NCBI GenBank assembly: GCA_018398765.1
Contig: JAHBMJ010001927.1
Coordinates: forward strand, 1-24,646
Source of the DNA: Chromera velia
Lineage: Eukaryota > Sar > Chromeraceae
Direction of reading: 5' to 3'
DNA: 24,646 nt
Shown: positions 1 to 21,107 of the stretch, piece by piece
Layout of the letters: each line of letters begins with the position of its first letter
Numbering within the stretch: the stretch's first letter is position 1
The notes under the pieces: generated by a model
The model's database searches: none
Told to the model about the DNA's origin: nothing
Seen by the model: the letters and a program-made list of their open reading frames with translations, nothing else
Program-made: the position numbers and the translations under genes

Positions 1-365
1 CTAACATTAATACAGCTAGCTTCAATTCTTTGTTTTATCTTTTGTTTTAAAAGAATCACGTTTTAAAGAATGTTTATTAAATTTAAAAGCTTATAAACAA
101 CGATTAAATACAATAGAACACCCTATGTTATTCCTATATTTCAAAGTCCGAAATGATGTTAAAGTCCGGTAGGTTTCATTATGTCATGTTTATAAAAAAT
201 CATGCTTTTTGCTCATTATTTTATAAAAAAATCTTTGTTACTGACTTTGTATGATTGATTGGTTCCACGTATAATGAACCTATTAATGATTGATGACATA
301 TAAGAAGAATGATTGAATGTTATTGAATGTAATGATAAGTGATAAGTGATTTAGTGGTGCCTTAG
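1..365. other. AT-rich intergenic DNA, no gene seen
   Basis: This stretch is very AT-rich, with long A and T runs and loosely repeated words such as gaatgattgaatg and gataagtgataagtg near 308-350. No open frame of meaningful length, no splice-bounded coding piece and no RNA gene can be supported. Its composition resembles the islands at 10100-11300 and 22600-23330, which suggests old transposon debris or low-constraint spacer; that is inference. Confidence 0.6.
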
Positions 366-13721: not shown

Positions 13722-16700
13722 CTAGAGCAGTGCCGCAGACTCACTCTCACTCTCACTTCCCTCCAAAAAGTCCTCAAGGTCATCCTCCCTCACATCCTCT
13801 CCATCTCTCTCTCTAGTCTCGTCCCCCTCCTCTTCCTCCTCACCACTCCCCTCTGACTCATCACCACCATCCCGCCGAGAGCCTGCCGAGGAGAATCTGG
13901 AAGGGTTCACACCTGTGGGCGTGGCGTCGGGTCTTGCTTCCTCTCTCTCACCAAGGTCCTGCTGAGATGGAGCGTGAGGGGAGTCCGTCTGATGATCCGC
14001 TCGTCGCTCTGCCTCCCTCAGTCTCTCCTGTTGTTGACGCAGCCGTTCGTAGGCAGCCAGGCCGACCCCCTCCTCCGCCTGGCGTCCTGTCCCTGTCCTT
14101 CTCTCCATCCCCTCAGCACCCGTCTCTACGCCCACCCCCCCGGGTCCAGGAGGGTCCTCTCGGATGTCTGCGAACTGGACCTGCTCTTGTGCGTGCAGAG
14201 GGGTGAAGATGGACACATACGGAGGGGGGTGGAGCTCCTCGAGCCTGCAGACAGAGGAGAGGAGAGGGGAGGTACGTCAACAGGTCTGCATCGATTGCAC
14301 CGAATAGAGTGGCCAAAGAAAATGGCTGGCATCCGGGTTTCTTCTCTATTTTCTTCTTTTGCAGATCTAGACAGACAAGAAGGACGACGATAGAGAAAAA
14401 GAGACACGGAAGGTAGAGTGAGTGAGTCCCTTCAGGAAAGACGCTGGAGGGAGAAGGCAGCGTCTGCGGAGCGATCTCTCTCTCTAACGTACCAGGTAGC
14501 AGTGCTACGAGATCGCCACCGCACAGCGTCCTGTACAGACACGATGTCTGAGAACTCCTCTCTGCAGGCAGGCAGACACGCATTTATTTATTTATTTATT
14601 CTATACTGTATGAAAACAAATGCACACAGACACGATGTCTGAGAACTCCTCTCTGCAGGCAGGAAAGCACGGACGCACGCGCGCACTCAACCAATAACAC
14701 AGGCATGCAAGCAGAGAGAGCGTATTTTGACGGAAAAAACGAAACAGAGTTTTCTGAAAGGACACCAACTGCAACGGGAGAAATGAGGGAACCGAATCGC
14801 ATCTAAGAGGAGGAAAACCAGCATGCACACAAGCAGGCAAAGAGCCTTCCAAGACACTCACCCACCCACCGACGAAACACCCAACCCACCAACCTGAGTC
14901 GAATCAGAGCGAAGATTCTCCACTCGTCTGTCAACAACGACTCGGACTCCCCCATTTCCCTGTCTCTGTCTCCATTCAAATCCTCCTCTTCTCCGTCTCC
15001 TCCCATCACACCAGCCTGGGGGGACCCTCCAGTCTCTCTGTCCCTGTTTCTGTCCTCACCCCCACCCCCCAGAACCCCTCCAGAGCCACTCCCTCTCCCT
15101 GTCGCCGCTGTGGTGGTTGAGTCTCCAAGTCCGGATCCTCCCGCGGCAGAGACGGCAGAGAGAGACCCCTGGGTTGCCGCTGCGTATCGCAACGGCCTGG
15201 TGGTTCTTTCTCTTTCGTGGTCCTGTCTTCGGGTCGAGGGGGAGAGTCCGGAGGCAGAGTTGCGGTCGTGCATGAGCAGAGACGCCACGAGGCACACGGG
15301 ACAGTCGACCTGACTGAGACCCCTGGCAGAGGACCTGAGGGAGGGAGGAGAAACAGGCAGAGGGAGAGGGGATCCACGAGAGGAAAAGAACTACAAAAGT
15401 GCCCGCCCAGCGTTCACGACTAAGAGGGAGGAGCAGCTCCTTCCATACACAGTGTCACTGCCAGTCTCTGAAAAAGAATGGTGTCGCTTCAAATTAAGAA
15501 CAGAACAGTCGGAGGCTCTCCGAACGCACCGACCACAACGGAAGAGCCAACGAAGCGCGATTCGAGGAAGAAAAGAACGCGGGGAGACAAGCCGGCGAAG
15601 AGAGGATACAGAAGGAAAACAGACACGGAAACCGCAAACATATGAGAGTCGGAAAACACACACACGCAGCCCCCCACGATTCCTCCCATATATCCCCAAA
15701 TCCCCTCCCGTACCAACCAGCTGTTCGCACACTCTGTGTGGAATCTGTGTCCGCAGAGGAACGCCACCACCGCAGGGCCGCACCTGTGAGAAAACCCCCC
15801 GTCCCCCCCCATGCCCCCCATGCCTCTGCTGCCCCCTCTCCTCCCACTTCCATCAACACTCCCTCCCCCCCCTCCTGAGGGACCCACATCATCATCTCCA
15901 AAATCACCCCCAAGACACCCGCAGAGAGCCGACAGCCCCCCACAGAGCATATCCGACTCTCTCTCGCCCTCGCGCTCTTCCCGGGACCTCCCCGCGCACC
16001 CCCCACACTCCCCCCCCCAACAGGAACACCCACAGCCAGGAGGACCGCAAAGAGAGAACGAACTAGAGCTCGGGACAGGGAGCTCCTCAATGCACACGGG
16101 GCACAAACTGGCCAACCCCCCCCCACAAGAATTGCCGAACGACGAGCCACTGCCCCCCTTCCCCCCTCTCTTGCCGTCCCGTGCCCACCTCCCTCTACTC
16201 CGTCTCATCCGCAGACACGGCAACAGGCACGAGAGAGAGGACCGAAGTCTCTCGCAAACCCCCGACTGACTACCACTCCCCCCAAATCCGTGAGGGTGGA
16301 ATTCTTCCAACGGACTTGCCGCACCCGGGTCCACTTCTGCCAACACTCGGTGGATACGGGCGATTTTAGCTCGGCATTTCGAGACACGGAGGGCGTGCCT
16401 GCAACGGGAAAGGGTCTCGAGGGCAGCGCAGACAGTGACGCACGCTGCCATGAGCACGCACATCAGGAGCACAGCGGAGAGAAACGCAGTCGCGCGCTTC
16501 TGGCGCAGGTCTGCCACTGTGAACTTGCCTGCGCCTATGGCGGAGAGTGACTCTGCCAGTCTCGTCACCACCAACTCCGGTGGGGCCCCTCCTCTCACTG
16601 CACTCTCCTCTACGTGTCTGATTAGATCCCTACCGAATATTCTCTGCATGTCTCTATCAACAGAGATACGCACAATATTGGAAGAAATGTCAAATATGGC

Positions 16701-18547
16701 CAACACCCCATGAGTGCACTCCCCCCCCAGCACACCCCACCGACGTCCGAGGCGGGACGCAAAGTCTTCGTAAATCCTCCCGACTCCAAAACCCAAACTC
16801 ACAGAGACCCACAAGAGCGATCTAGAGGCAGAGGACACAAGCAATGCGAGAGGACGAAATACAGGGGGCTGGTCCCCCTCATTCTCTCCTCTCGGGTTCT
16901 CTTTCCGAGAAAGGTGCTGGGAGACTGCCAATGCGGCAGTGGGGGAAGCGGAAGAGGAGACGGACGTGGAAGAAGTATTCGTTTGCAAAAGCGAAATCTT
17001 GCTTTGTCTTGCCGGAAGTGAGGGAGTGTGATGGGGGGATTTTGTCTCGGGACTGTCAAGCACCGTTGTGTTTTGATTTGCTGCAGACAGAAGAGGGGCT
17101 CCTCCGGCAGGAGCAGGGATGCCCTTGAAGGGCGTCGGGGAGTACTGCTGTTGCGGCGGCGCGTCGGGTCCCTTTGCCCCCTTAATCTGAACACCCGCCC
17201 CTGTCCCTGGAGGACCTCCAAGGGACGCGGAGGAGGACACCCCCACACCCACAGGCAAGCCCCCCCCCCCTGGTGCACTCATGCTGGTGGAGGCAGACAC
17301 GGGCCCGTCGGGTCTCGGCAGCGGTTCCCCTGTCAACACGTCCTTCTCGTATGTTTTGCCATCTGAGCCAGCAGGCATGGATCCTGAGGCCCCTGGCACC
17401 GCCACATTCGCACCCGTGTAGTCACTGCCCGTCGCCGCAATGGGGGGAAACTCCATGTCCTCTGCGTGCACCTCCCGCTGCTGATCAGGGGAGGGGTACG
17501 AGAGGGCGTCCCCTCTATCGACCTCACCCACAATGGCGATGACCACAGTCGGGGGGGATGCGGGGCAATTGGAGGGACCTGTGAGCTGCAGTCGGGAAGG
17601 AGTGGAGAACGGCAGAGGGAATGGACTCATCGGCAGCAGAAGCAGGAACAGAGGACTGCGCAGGGGAAAGGAAGGAGGCAAGCAGAAGGACCAAGAGAGG
17701 GCGCGAAAGAGTAGATGGTTCGATTCAGTTCGCGATGAATGCTTCAAGAACGGAACTAAGCGCATTCGCAAATTAAAGCTGAATCCTTATCACAGACTGA
17801 GACAGCCATGGGGGCCAGATGGGCAAAAAGAGGCGCTAGGGGCTTTCTTTTGTGCGTCGCGCTTTTAGTATTTGCCGCTCAAGTTCAGCTGTTGACTTTC
17901 CCCATCGAAATTCACGAAGCTGTAGTGACACTTCTGGTGGTAGCGGGAAAGGAAAGACATCGGAACCCTTAGCATTCGATTGCGATCCGTTACTTTGGAA
18001 ACTGGCACTTCTGTCTTCTCGCAGGCCGATGATTCTTCCTCCCTGCCTAGACTTGTTTCCTTTCCTTTCTTGCACGTACCTGTGGAATCGATGAGAGGCG
18101 GCGGTCGGCATCGTCGGCCGAGCTCTCACTGATGGCCCTCTCAGGGTCGCACAGGTGAGAGTACTGCACGTTGGAAGGTCTGCAGGTCCACCCTTCTCCT
18201 GTCTTTGAGGCGGGAGGGGAGGCGGAGAGGGGAAGCACTTGGGGTGAAGAGGAAGGAGGCAGATGCAGTTGGGGGAGGTCTAAAACCCCCCAGGGACGTC
18301 TGGCAGAACGCGACTGGAGAAGAGAAGTATCTGGATTTTCTTCCCCTGTCTCCCTGTGTTTTGCTTCCGCAACTTCTTCTTTTTCTTCTTCCCCATCTCT
18401 GTGAAGAAATCGTGACAGGCCAGGTAGGACCCCCAGATTGGCCCCCAGCATTTTTGCATCGCACGGACGCACCGCCGCTCTTTGCTCCCCCCCGAGAAGG
18501 AGAACGAGGCAGCAGAGAGCCGTACGGAGTGCCCACTCACAGTGCAT
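13722..18547 (-). CDS. Predicted membrane RING-H2 protein with signal peptide, TPM-like domain and acidic tail (5-exon model)
   Basis: Probably a membrane-anchored E3 ubiquitin ligase. Exons on the minus strand are 18547-18080, 17585-15718, 15334-14894, 14561-14493 and 14244-13722. Every junction is GT-AG and phases agree (0,2,2,2), giving 3369 nt or 1122 residues. A signal peptide (ALCCLVLLLGG core) opens the protein. Residues about 120-156 (HLCDPERAISESS) and 413-507 (RIYEDFASRLGRRWGV, then HGVLAIFDISSNIVRI) resemble the two halves of a TPM domain (TLP18.3/Psb32/MOLO-1 family), separated by about 250 mostly low-complexity residues. A transmembrane helix spans about 522-545 (TAFLSAVLLMCVLMAACVTV). 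The RING-H2 finger has CPVC at 651-654, CGHRFHTEC at 767-775, a Trp codon split by an intron, then VDCPVC in the next exon. The loop between the first two Cys pairs is 112 residues, far above the usual 9-39. A helical block (DEWRIFALIRLR, EEFSDIVSVQDAV) and an acidic tail ending in SESESESAALL follow. The RING and membrane topology are fairly sure; TPM assignment is moderate. Confidence 0.82.
14535..14663. repeat. 38-bp exact direct repeat duplicating a 3' splice site and exon start
   Basis: The same 38 bases occur at 14535-14572 and 14626-14663, 91 bases apart. On the minus strand each copy reads cctgcctgcag followed by agaggagttctcagacatcg, that is, the acceptor and first codons of exon 4 of the RING gene. 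Only the copy at 14572-14535 leads into the open exon ending at 14493. The other, at 14663-14626, reads EEFSDIVSV and then soon meets an in-frame stop. The spacer holds a (TTTA)n-like run. It looks like a local segmental duplication that created a decoy acceptor. Confidence 0.9.
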
Positions 18548-19227: not shown

Positions 19228-21107
19228 ATGTTGGAGACGCTGAAACAATACTGGGCTGAGTTCTCAGTCCTCTTCAAAAAGCCTCGAAGTGTAAGTCGTT
19301 TTCAAGTGCTTCTAGTAATGTGCAATGTCTTGCAGTAGTATACCTTTGCGGTTTATGCATGATGTGTGTGCAGTTTTTTCAACAGGCCCTGAACCTGGCG
19401 TGTGTTGTCTTCTGGGCGCTGATGATGTGGAAGGGCTTGATGATTGTGACGGGAAGCGAAAGTCCGGTAGTGGTCGTGCTGAGGTCAGTCAAGCGTCTTG
19501 ATTTCTCTGTCTCTTTGCGCTGGAAAGCTCCCTCAGAGACTGCCGGCCAAGGGTGCCGGCGTTTGTTTTCATTACACCAGATGTGCTGACCGAGATGCCC
19601 GGTTCTTTTTATTGCAGTGGTAGCATGGAGCCGTGCTTCTACAGAGGGGACATTCTGTTTCTAACGTGGAAGCCTGATCCTGTACTGGCAGGGGATGTAA
19701 TCGTCTTCAATGTGGACGGACGGGACATCCCAATCGTACATCGAATTATATCCGTACATGAAAAGTCAGTCAGTGCCAGGGAGTCCGTTCGAAGATTCTC
19801 CTCCACCGTTTCTCTGGTTTGCCTTTCGTCTTCCCTGTCCAGCTTTCGCTCCTAGCGCTCCAGCCTCTTGAGGTTTCCAATTCTGTCCTACTTTCCTTTT
19901 TCTTCTCATTCATCTCTTTACCCTTTGGGGATCGCATGACCTTCGTCTCCTCTCTCTTTAGCACCGTGCCACCCCCATCGGTCTCATCATCGTTTTGAAC
20001 TCTCCCATGAGTGCCCGTCACCTTACTTCTTTCTATCTGCTCTCGGGTCCGCCTGTCTGTCTGTCTGGTTGCTTCCGGAATCCCCGTGACCGTCTGCTGA
20101 CTGCATGTCGGTCTTGTGACGCTCCTTCCCTGCACCCATCTCTGCGTATTTTTCGGTTTCCGAATCACTGTTTTCTTTCTGCTTCCTCTGTTTCTCTGAT
20201 TTCCTATTTCGGTCATCATTTTTCGCTGTATGGTATTATTGTTTGATGAATGCCGAGGTCTCATACACGGCCTACATACACGGCCTGTGAGTTAAAGAGG
20301 CCACTGGAGAGGTGCGCACTCTAAAAGGACGTGCATTTTCGATATTTTTCTTCTTTAACCCTTTTCTCCCTTTCTCTTTCTTCTCTGCCTGTCTCCTGCT
20401 CCCTGGGCTCTGGCTGAAAGCAGTTCAAAGGGGGAGGTGAACGTTTTGACGAAGGGAGACAACAACCAGGTGGACGATAGGGGACTCTACGCACGGAAAC
20501 AACTGTGGTTAAAGAAGAATAACATCATGGGGAGGGCTCAGGGGTAAGTTTGAGTCGGATCGAGAGGAGGATTTGTTTCTTTGCTTGTCTGTCTGTTTGT
20601 TTGGCTGTTGGTTCATTGTGTTCCATTCTTGAGCACCTTTGGGGAGGGGGCCTTCCTGATTGATTTTTTTTTCCGGGTCTTCTCTCCCTTCCTTTGCCTG
20701 TTGCGCTTTGGTTTTTGCTTCTTTAAATATTCGGCTTCGTTTTCTCTTACGTGTCTTTGCATGCGTCTGTGTCTTTTTCTTTCTTTCCTCGTTTTTTTCT
20801 TTCTTTTATTTTCTTTCTTTCTGTCTTTCTTTTTTTCTGGCTTTATTTTCTTTTCTTTCTTTCCTTCCTTCTTCCGTTCCTTCCTTCCTTTTTTCCTTTC
20901 ATTTTTTCTTCCGTCCTTCCTGTCTGCTTTTGTCCGTTTTTCAGTTTTTCCCTGTCTGTCTCTGTGTATGAAGAGGAAAAAAACAATACAAGCGGAAGTT
21001 CACATCCTTATTTCGCGGAGAGAGAAAAAAAGGGAGCAAGAGGAAGAAAAAGAAATTTATCGTCCGTCTGTCTGTTTGTCTGTCTGTCTGTGAAGAACCC
21101 TATCGTC

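Follow-up and report, generated by a model that had tools for sequence, protein, structure and literature searches.

A predicted membrane RING-H2 protein with a divergent TPM/MOLO1 domain in Chromera velia

Does Chromera velia join a domain of the TPM superfamily to a ubiquitin ligase within one membrane protein? The question is raised by a minus-strand gene at 18547-13722 of a 24,646-nucleotide stretch of C. velia DNA (contig JAHBMJ010001927.1 of assembly GCA_018398765.1, positions 1 to 24,646), referred to below as the window. An earlier note on this DNA had proposed a five-exon gene combining a signal peptide, a TPM-like region, a single membrane helix and a cytosolic RING finger. Our analysis supports these domains and their layout, with a TPM-superfamily match, a helix and a RING-H2 finger in that order, from which a function can be proposed. 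The gene probably encodes a type I membrane E3 ubiquitin ligase, whose lumenal MOLO1/TPM domain would bind or assemble a membrane or cargo partner.

Gene structure and exon evidence

Rebuilt from genomic DNA alone, the five-exon model of the earlier note translates as a single frame, opening with the ATG at 18547 and closing with a stop codon whose last base is 13722. The exon 2/3 junction offers two in-frame options, namely 15718/15334 (model B) and 15714/15309 (model A), and all introns are GT-AG in both models. Translation of the joined exons yields 1122 amino acids in model B and 1115 in model A. Residue numbering follows model B. The exons, all on the minus strand, are:

18080..18547, minus strand: exon 1, N-terminus resembling a signal peptide and beginning of the TPM/MOLO1 domain; donor GTACGTGC
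15718..17585 (end at 15714 in model A), minus strand: exon 2, remaining TPM domain, membrane helix and RING ligands 1-6
14894..15334 (start at 15309 in model A), minus strand: exon 3, the last two RING ligands (7-8) and the opening helix of the C-terminal block
14493..14561, minus strand: exon 4 (69 nucleotides), EEFSDIVSVQDAV, part of the C-terminal block
13722..14244, minus strand: exon 5, remainder of the C-terminal block, acidic tail and stop codon

A single exon, exon 2, carries residues ~421-520 (the C-terminal TPM half), residues 527-545 (the membrane helix) and, within 651-775, the first six RING ligands, which makes the joining of TPM, membrane and RING parts independent of splice guesses. 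Each domain that is split by an intron is completed in the next exon, the TPM domain across exons 1 and 2 and the RING finger across exons 2 and 3. With two possible exon 2/3 junctions and a model drawn from genomic DNA alone, it could be argued that the TPM-membrane part and the RING finger come from two wrongly joined genes. We consider such an artefact very unlikely, as the frame holding the TPM half, the helix and RING ligands 1-6 is open over 17786-15489, the RING is complete only with exon 3, and a separation would need an unseen intron within exon 2. Nor, judging from the reading frames, can exons 1-2 and exons 3-5 easily be separate genes, since the TPM match crosses the exon 1/2 junction and the RING ligands are divided between exons 2 and 3.

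The TPM/MOLO1 domain

The domain is interrupted by a long insert and consists of the following parts:

17508..18199, split by the intron 18079-17586, minus strand: N-terminal half of the TPM/MOLO1 domain, residues 117-182, matching PF17175 positions 16-77 (this half alone) or 16-116 (both halves)
16794..17507, minus strand: low-complexity insert rich in Ser, Pro, Gly and Ala, 238 residues (183-420), inside the TPM domain
16494..16793, minus strand: C-terminal half of the TPM domain, residues ~421-520, assigned from profile matches, hhalign, and an alignment-guided model with fold search

With residues 183-420 left out, the MOLO1 profile (PF17175) matches at 29.8 bits, above its cut-off of 27 (E = 7.9e-7), over positions 16-116 of its 122. 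Shuffling the C-terminal half within this construct lowered the MOLO1 score to 16.1-17.2 bits in all 9 controls. The N-terminal half alone reaches 19.1 bits, below the cut-off, and none of its 7 shuffles matched any family. Joining exons 1 and 2 adds signal, because the exon 1 part (last 40 residues) scores only 15.1 bits on its own (E = 0.028, below the cut-off) and the exon 2 part of this half on its own has no Pfam match. The PF04536 (TPM_phosphatase) cut-off of 22.1 was not reached in any of the five stretches or constructs listing this family (12.2 to 17.1 bits), and the NCBIfam profiles returned nothing for exon 2. Thus, a TPM-like region that had been called from pattern only is now backed by profiles, with TPM-superfamily matches within residues 121-484 of the 110-510 originally singled out. 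MOLO1 passes its cut-off once the insert is left out, whereas PF04536, on the C-terminal half, stays below its own. By these profiles, the closest TPM-superfamily family is MOLO1 (PF17175), of which this would be a divergent representative.

The C-terminal half also resembles bacterial TPM domains. These were gathered from a sample of one phylum, with a match in 58 of 200 genomes, and a proteobacterial hidden Markov model was built from 41 sequences. Each comparison with this model was set against 2000 shuffled sequences, some of which HMMER did not report. For the C-terminal half the score was 9.2 bits, a value reached by 0 of 2000 shuffles (1267 reported, best 4.9); for both halves joined it was 8.2 bits, likewise reached by 0 of 2000 (887 reported, best 3.7). 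In hhalign, the C-terminal half aligned with bacterial TPM at 77.5% probability over 46 columns, compared with at most 6.3% in 60 shuffles; the joined halves gave 71.1% in a run without shuffle control. When the PDB was searched by sequence with exon 2, the single chain listed was 7tbr, a TPM domain (E = 1.4, insignificant alone). A scan of genome contigs with E. coli YgcG, aimed at bacterial TPM genes, found 34 stretches that fit the pattern, 1 of which was confirmed; among viral contigs searched for relatives of exon 2, 2 stretches fit and 0 were confirmed. For the N-terminal half, LRP1-type modules (two PDB chains, E = 0.11 and 0.31) were rejected as a coincidence of Cys spacing.

An AlphaFold2 model of residues 393-545, a fragment from which the part of the domain preceding the insert is absent, was guided by an alignment with 17 bacterial TPM rows and reached a mean predicted local distance difference test score (pLDDT) of 70.9 and a predicted template modelling score of 0.47. 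Its six best Foldseek rows are all of TPM type: 7tbr, BA42 (twice), PG_0361, which we take to be a TPM protein, and BA41 (twice). TLP18.3 and Psb32 rank lower, amid unrelated rows. Because the alignment consisted of TPM proteins, the model speaks for compatibility with a TPM fold and is no independent proof of it.

Which role the domain could play was considered from an alignment with 17 TPM family rows. Core positions are kept: G449 agrees with 16 of the 17 rows, L451 with all 17, W439 with 13 and I463 with 15. Asp468, on the other hand, stands where 17 of 17 rows carry Gly, so that the best-kept TPM motif, GYGLE, reads DRDMQ (GYG to DRD); NNG/DNG has become THG. Because of this change, phosphatase activity of the domain is unlikely, and a binding or assembly role is favoured. 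Plasmodium TPM proteins have been viewed as possible phosphatases, and in vitro phosphatase activity has been reported for a plant TPM protein (both in excerpts of PMC7487766). The plant activity would accord with a two-enzyme protein, an acid phosphatase of TPM type tethered beside a RING finger. The altered GYGLE and NNG/DNG motifs make this highly improbable here, and in the passages concerned of a comparative study a chaperone-like assembly role was proposed for TPM (PMC11237479), followed by a later paper that cites it and calls a phosphatase role unlikely (PMC12419801, likewise in excerpt).

The same loss of the Gly found in all 17 rows, together with marginal scores and a 238-residue insert within the domain, could instead mean that the TPM part has decayed into, or serves purely as, a structural stalk on an ordinary membrane RING ligase whose lumenal domain has no partner. 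This reading is unlikely, given that the core residues G449, L451 and W439 are kept and that the MOLO1 profile is followed over positions 16-116 of 122. Moreover, Plasmodium TPM proteins also lack the phosphatase residues, according to the part of PMC7618085 that deals with them, yet one is reported in excerpts of PMC7487766 to be required for sporogony.

Membrane helix, RING-H2 finger and C-terminal block

The features on either side of the TPM domain are:

18476..18547, minus strand: signal-peptide-like N-terminus, residues ~1-24, by hydropathy
16419..16475, minus strand: single membrane helix, residues 527-545, Kyte-Doolittle 2.72, helical in both AlphaFold2 models
15729..16103, minus strand: RING-H2 ligands 1-6 (C651, C654, C767, H769, H772 and C775), in exon 2
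15789..16052, minus strand: Gly/Cys-rich insert of 88 residues (668-755), interrupting the RING after ligand 2 and before ligand 3
15292..15303, minus strand: RING ligands 7-8, CPVC at residues 790-793 (C790 and C793), in exon 3

The N-terminus, MHCEWALRTALCCLVLLLG, resembles a signal peptide by hydropathy (Kyte-Doolittle 1.41), and residues 527-545 form the highest-scoring 19-residue hydropathy window of the whole protein, in agreement with the signal peptide and membrane helix of the earlier note. A basic stretch follows the helix and was counted in favour of the membrane ligase proposed below. Candidate glycosylation sites are N328 and N359.

The RING-H2 finger named in the same note is borne out by a complete ligand set in the order C-C-C-H-H-C-C-C. 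Without its 88-residue insert, the RING of model B reaches both Pfam cut-offs, with 30.6 bits for PF00097 (cut-off 21) and 29.6 for PF13639 (cut-off 27.3). The corresponding RING of model A reaches PF00097 at 25.0 bits and stays below the cut-off of PF13639 at 25.1 bits; on these scores, model A was set aside as the main form. Its junction may be an alternative splice form, and if both junctions are used, one form may carry a weaker RING. The choice of junction sets the spacing between ligands 6 and 7 at 7 or 14 residues. In the whole protein, PF00097 and PF13639 score 17.3 and 19.5 bits, and every RING family is below its cut-off, with a maximum of 20.0 bits. A sequence search of the PDB with the RING lacking its insert gave nothing at E <= 0.01. 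RING ligases usually contact the ubiquitin-conjugating enzyme (E2) through a hydrophobic residue after ligand 2, a Trp after ligand 6 and a Pro after ligand 7; at these places the C. velia protein carries I655, W779 and P791.

The helical block after the RING, DEWRIFALIRLREEFSDIVSVQDAVRW...TWLEELHPPPYVSIF, is encoded at 14928-14894, 14561-14493 and 14244 onward on the minus strand and lies, as noted earlier, within the translated frame (exons 3-5). A sequence search of the PDB returned nothing for it up to E = 10. A SAM domain is not claimed, SAM_1 having scored 14.9 bits (E = 0.036; cut-off 23) in a fragment and being absent from the whole-protein list. Within intron 3, upstream of exon 4, a 46-nucleotide near-duplicate (93%) at 14626-14671 repeats 14535-14580, which comprises the exon 4 acceptor and the first bases of that exon. 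Splicing at this upstream copy (acceptor before 14652) is predicted to yield a 942-residue protein terminating in EEFSDIVSVCICFHTV, in which the RING is retained and the acidic tail is missing.

Two neighbouring genes were recognised in the window. On the plus strand at 1859-2335, an open stretch encodes a Vps51/Exo84/COG1-type N-terminus (PF08700, E = 7e-17), as in Golgi/endosome tethering subunits. A divergently transcribed gene at ~19360-19800, also on the plus strand, codes for an S26-family signal peptidase, for which a hand-joined two-exon piece scores 24.6 bits against PF10502 (cut-off 22.9); this is probably SEC11. These neighbours and the introns indicate eukaryotic DNA.

Proposed function and comparison with known systems

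We propose that the protein would enter the secretory or endosomal system through its signal peptide, which may then be cleaved, and span the membrane once as a type I protein. Its MOLO-1-type TPM domain, in the lumen or outside the cell, would bind or help assemble a membrane or cargo protein, while the cytosolic RING-H2 finger would recruit an E2 and ubiquitinate either the cytosolic side of this partner or the ligase itself. The ubiquitinated partner, or the ligase, would then be steered to sorting or degradation. The orientation, with the RING in the cytosol and the TPM domain in the lumen, is suggested mainly by the signal-peptide-like start; the charges flanking the helix add little.

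Several results weigh against this proposal. In the whole protein, MOLO1 scores 17.0 bits (E = 0.0071, residues 121-178) and PF04536 12.2 bits (E = 0.19, residues 428-484), both below cut-off. The MOLO1 cut-off is passed only when the insert is removed, at boundaries picked by the analyst, and a second construct, retaining 24 more insert residues and extending through the membrane helix, scored 22.0 bits, below the cut-off and on the N-terminal half only. The proteobacterial TPM model does not recognise the N-terminal half (-2.3 bits, equalled by 284 of 1319 reported shuffles) and gives the whole protein 4.8 bits, a score bettered by 1 of 2000 shuffles (9.8 bits; 311 reported); hhalign, run here without shuffle control, assigns the whole protein only 39.6%. 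When residues 393-545 were modelled without relatives, pLDDT fell to 49 and no TPM protein appeared among the 50 of 314 Foldseek rows listed. The TPM-like model depends on the TPM rows in its alignment, and even there the best Foldseek E-value is 0.019 (7tbr), none being <= 0.001. Charges on the two sides of the helix differ only slightly, with 3 Lys or Arg in the 15 residues before it and 4 in the 15 after. Finally, strongly active RINGs usually carry Arg or Lys after ligand 8, where the C. velia RING has Leu.

In a term search of the open-access literature, covering one library, we found no published description of a TPM domain together with a ubiquitin ligase, although domain databases may list such a fusion. 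Term searches of the same kind found no joint report of a TPM domain or TLP18.3 with a RING finger, and a joint mention of TPM_phosphatase and RING only for bacterial phage-shock systems; for chromerids with RING or ubiquitin, they yielded nothing of use here. TPM/MOLO-1 domains have been linked to photosystem repair, to receptor levels and to sporogony of malaria parasites, with no clear job in common. A TPM domain physically joined to a RING finger would suggest that the step downstream is the sorting of membrane complexes or their turnover, an idea that becomes testable in a single protein. The locus is also an example of a protist protein in which two recognisable domains stay below whole-protein annotation cut-offs because of long low-complexity inserts.

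The C-terminal half of the C. velia domain shares with bacterial TPM proteins of the YgcG/BA41/BA42 type, and with TLP18.3 and Psb32, the likeness described above from profiles, hhalign and the alignment-guided model. It differs from them in the loss of the GYG motif, the 238-residue insert and the added RING. Without the insert, its profile match places it in one domain family (PF17175) with C. elegans MOLO-1, a modulator of the levamisole receptor. MOLO-1 itself is a small receptor accessory protein that crosses the membrane once and is not known to carry a RING.

In Plasmodium, TPM proteins with a membrane helix, among them TPM2 with its endoplasmic reticulum signal peptide and location in the crystalloid, are described in parts of PMC7487766 and PMC7618085; excerpts of PMC9876418 and PMC8274421 name MOLO1-domain proteins, and a table in the latter gives two of these the values 261 and 275 in a column resembling length. 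These MOLO1-domain, TPM2 and CRONE proteins have the TPM/MOLO1 domain and membrane helix in common with the C. velia protein, and TPM2 the signal peptide as well. Their helix, in contrast, lies at or near the C-terminus, and a RING goes unmentioned in the descriptions within these parts of the four papers. A tentative and, at present, doubtful extension is that proteins joining a MOLO1/TPM domain, a membrane helix and a RING form a separate class of transmembrane ligases, kept in photosynthetic and other apicomplexan relatives, in which a lumenal receptor-assembly domain would pick complexes for ubiquitination; the RING-less Plasmodium proteins would then be cut-down cousins.

The predicted layout is that of the PA-TM-RING ligases with a different lumenal domain. 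This family, to which the plant RMR receptors belong, includes Goliath/RNF130, GRAIL/RNF128, RNF13 and RNF167, and shares with the C. velia protein the order of signal peptide, one helix (both assigned here by hydropathy) and RING-H2. No protease-associated domain was present among the Pfam matches listed for the C. velia protein (maximum E-value 10, with HMMER filters dropping most matches above ~0.1). As set out in the relevant part of PMC4021871, the PA-TM-RING layout consists of a signal peptide, a lumenal or extracellular domain, a single transmembrane helix and a RING-H2 finger; in the C. velia protein, by comparison, the lumenal domain is of TPM/MOLO1 type, and both this domain and the RING carry long inserts.

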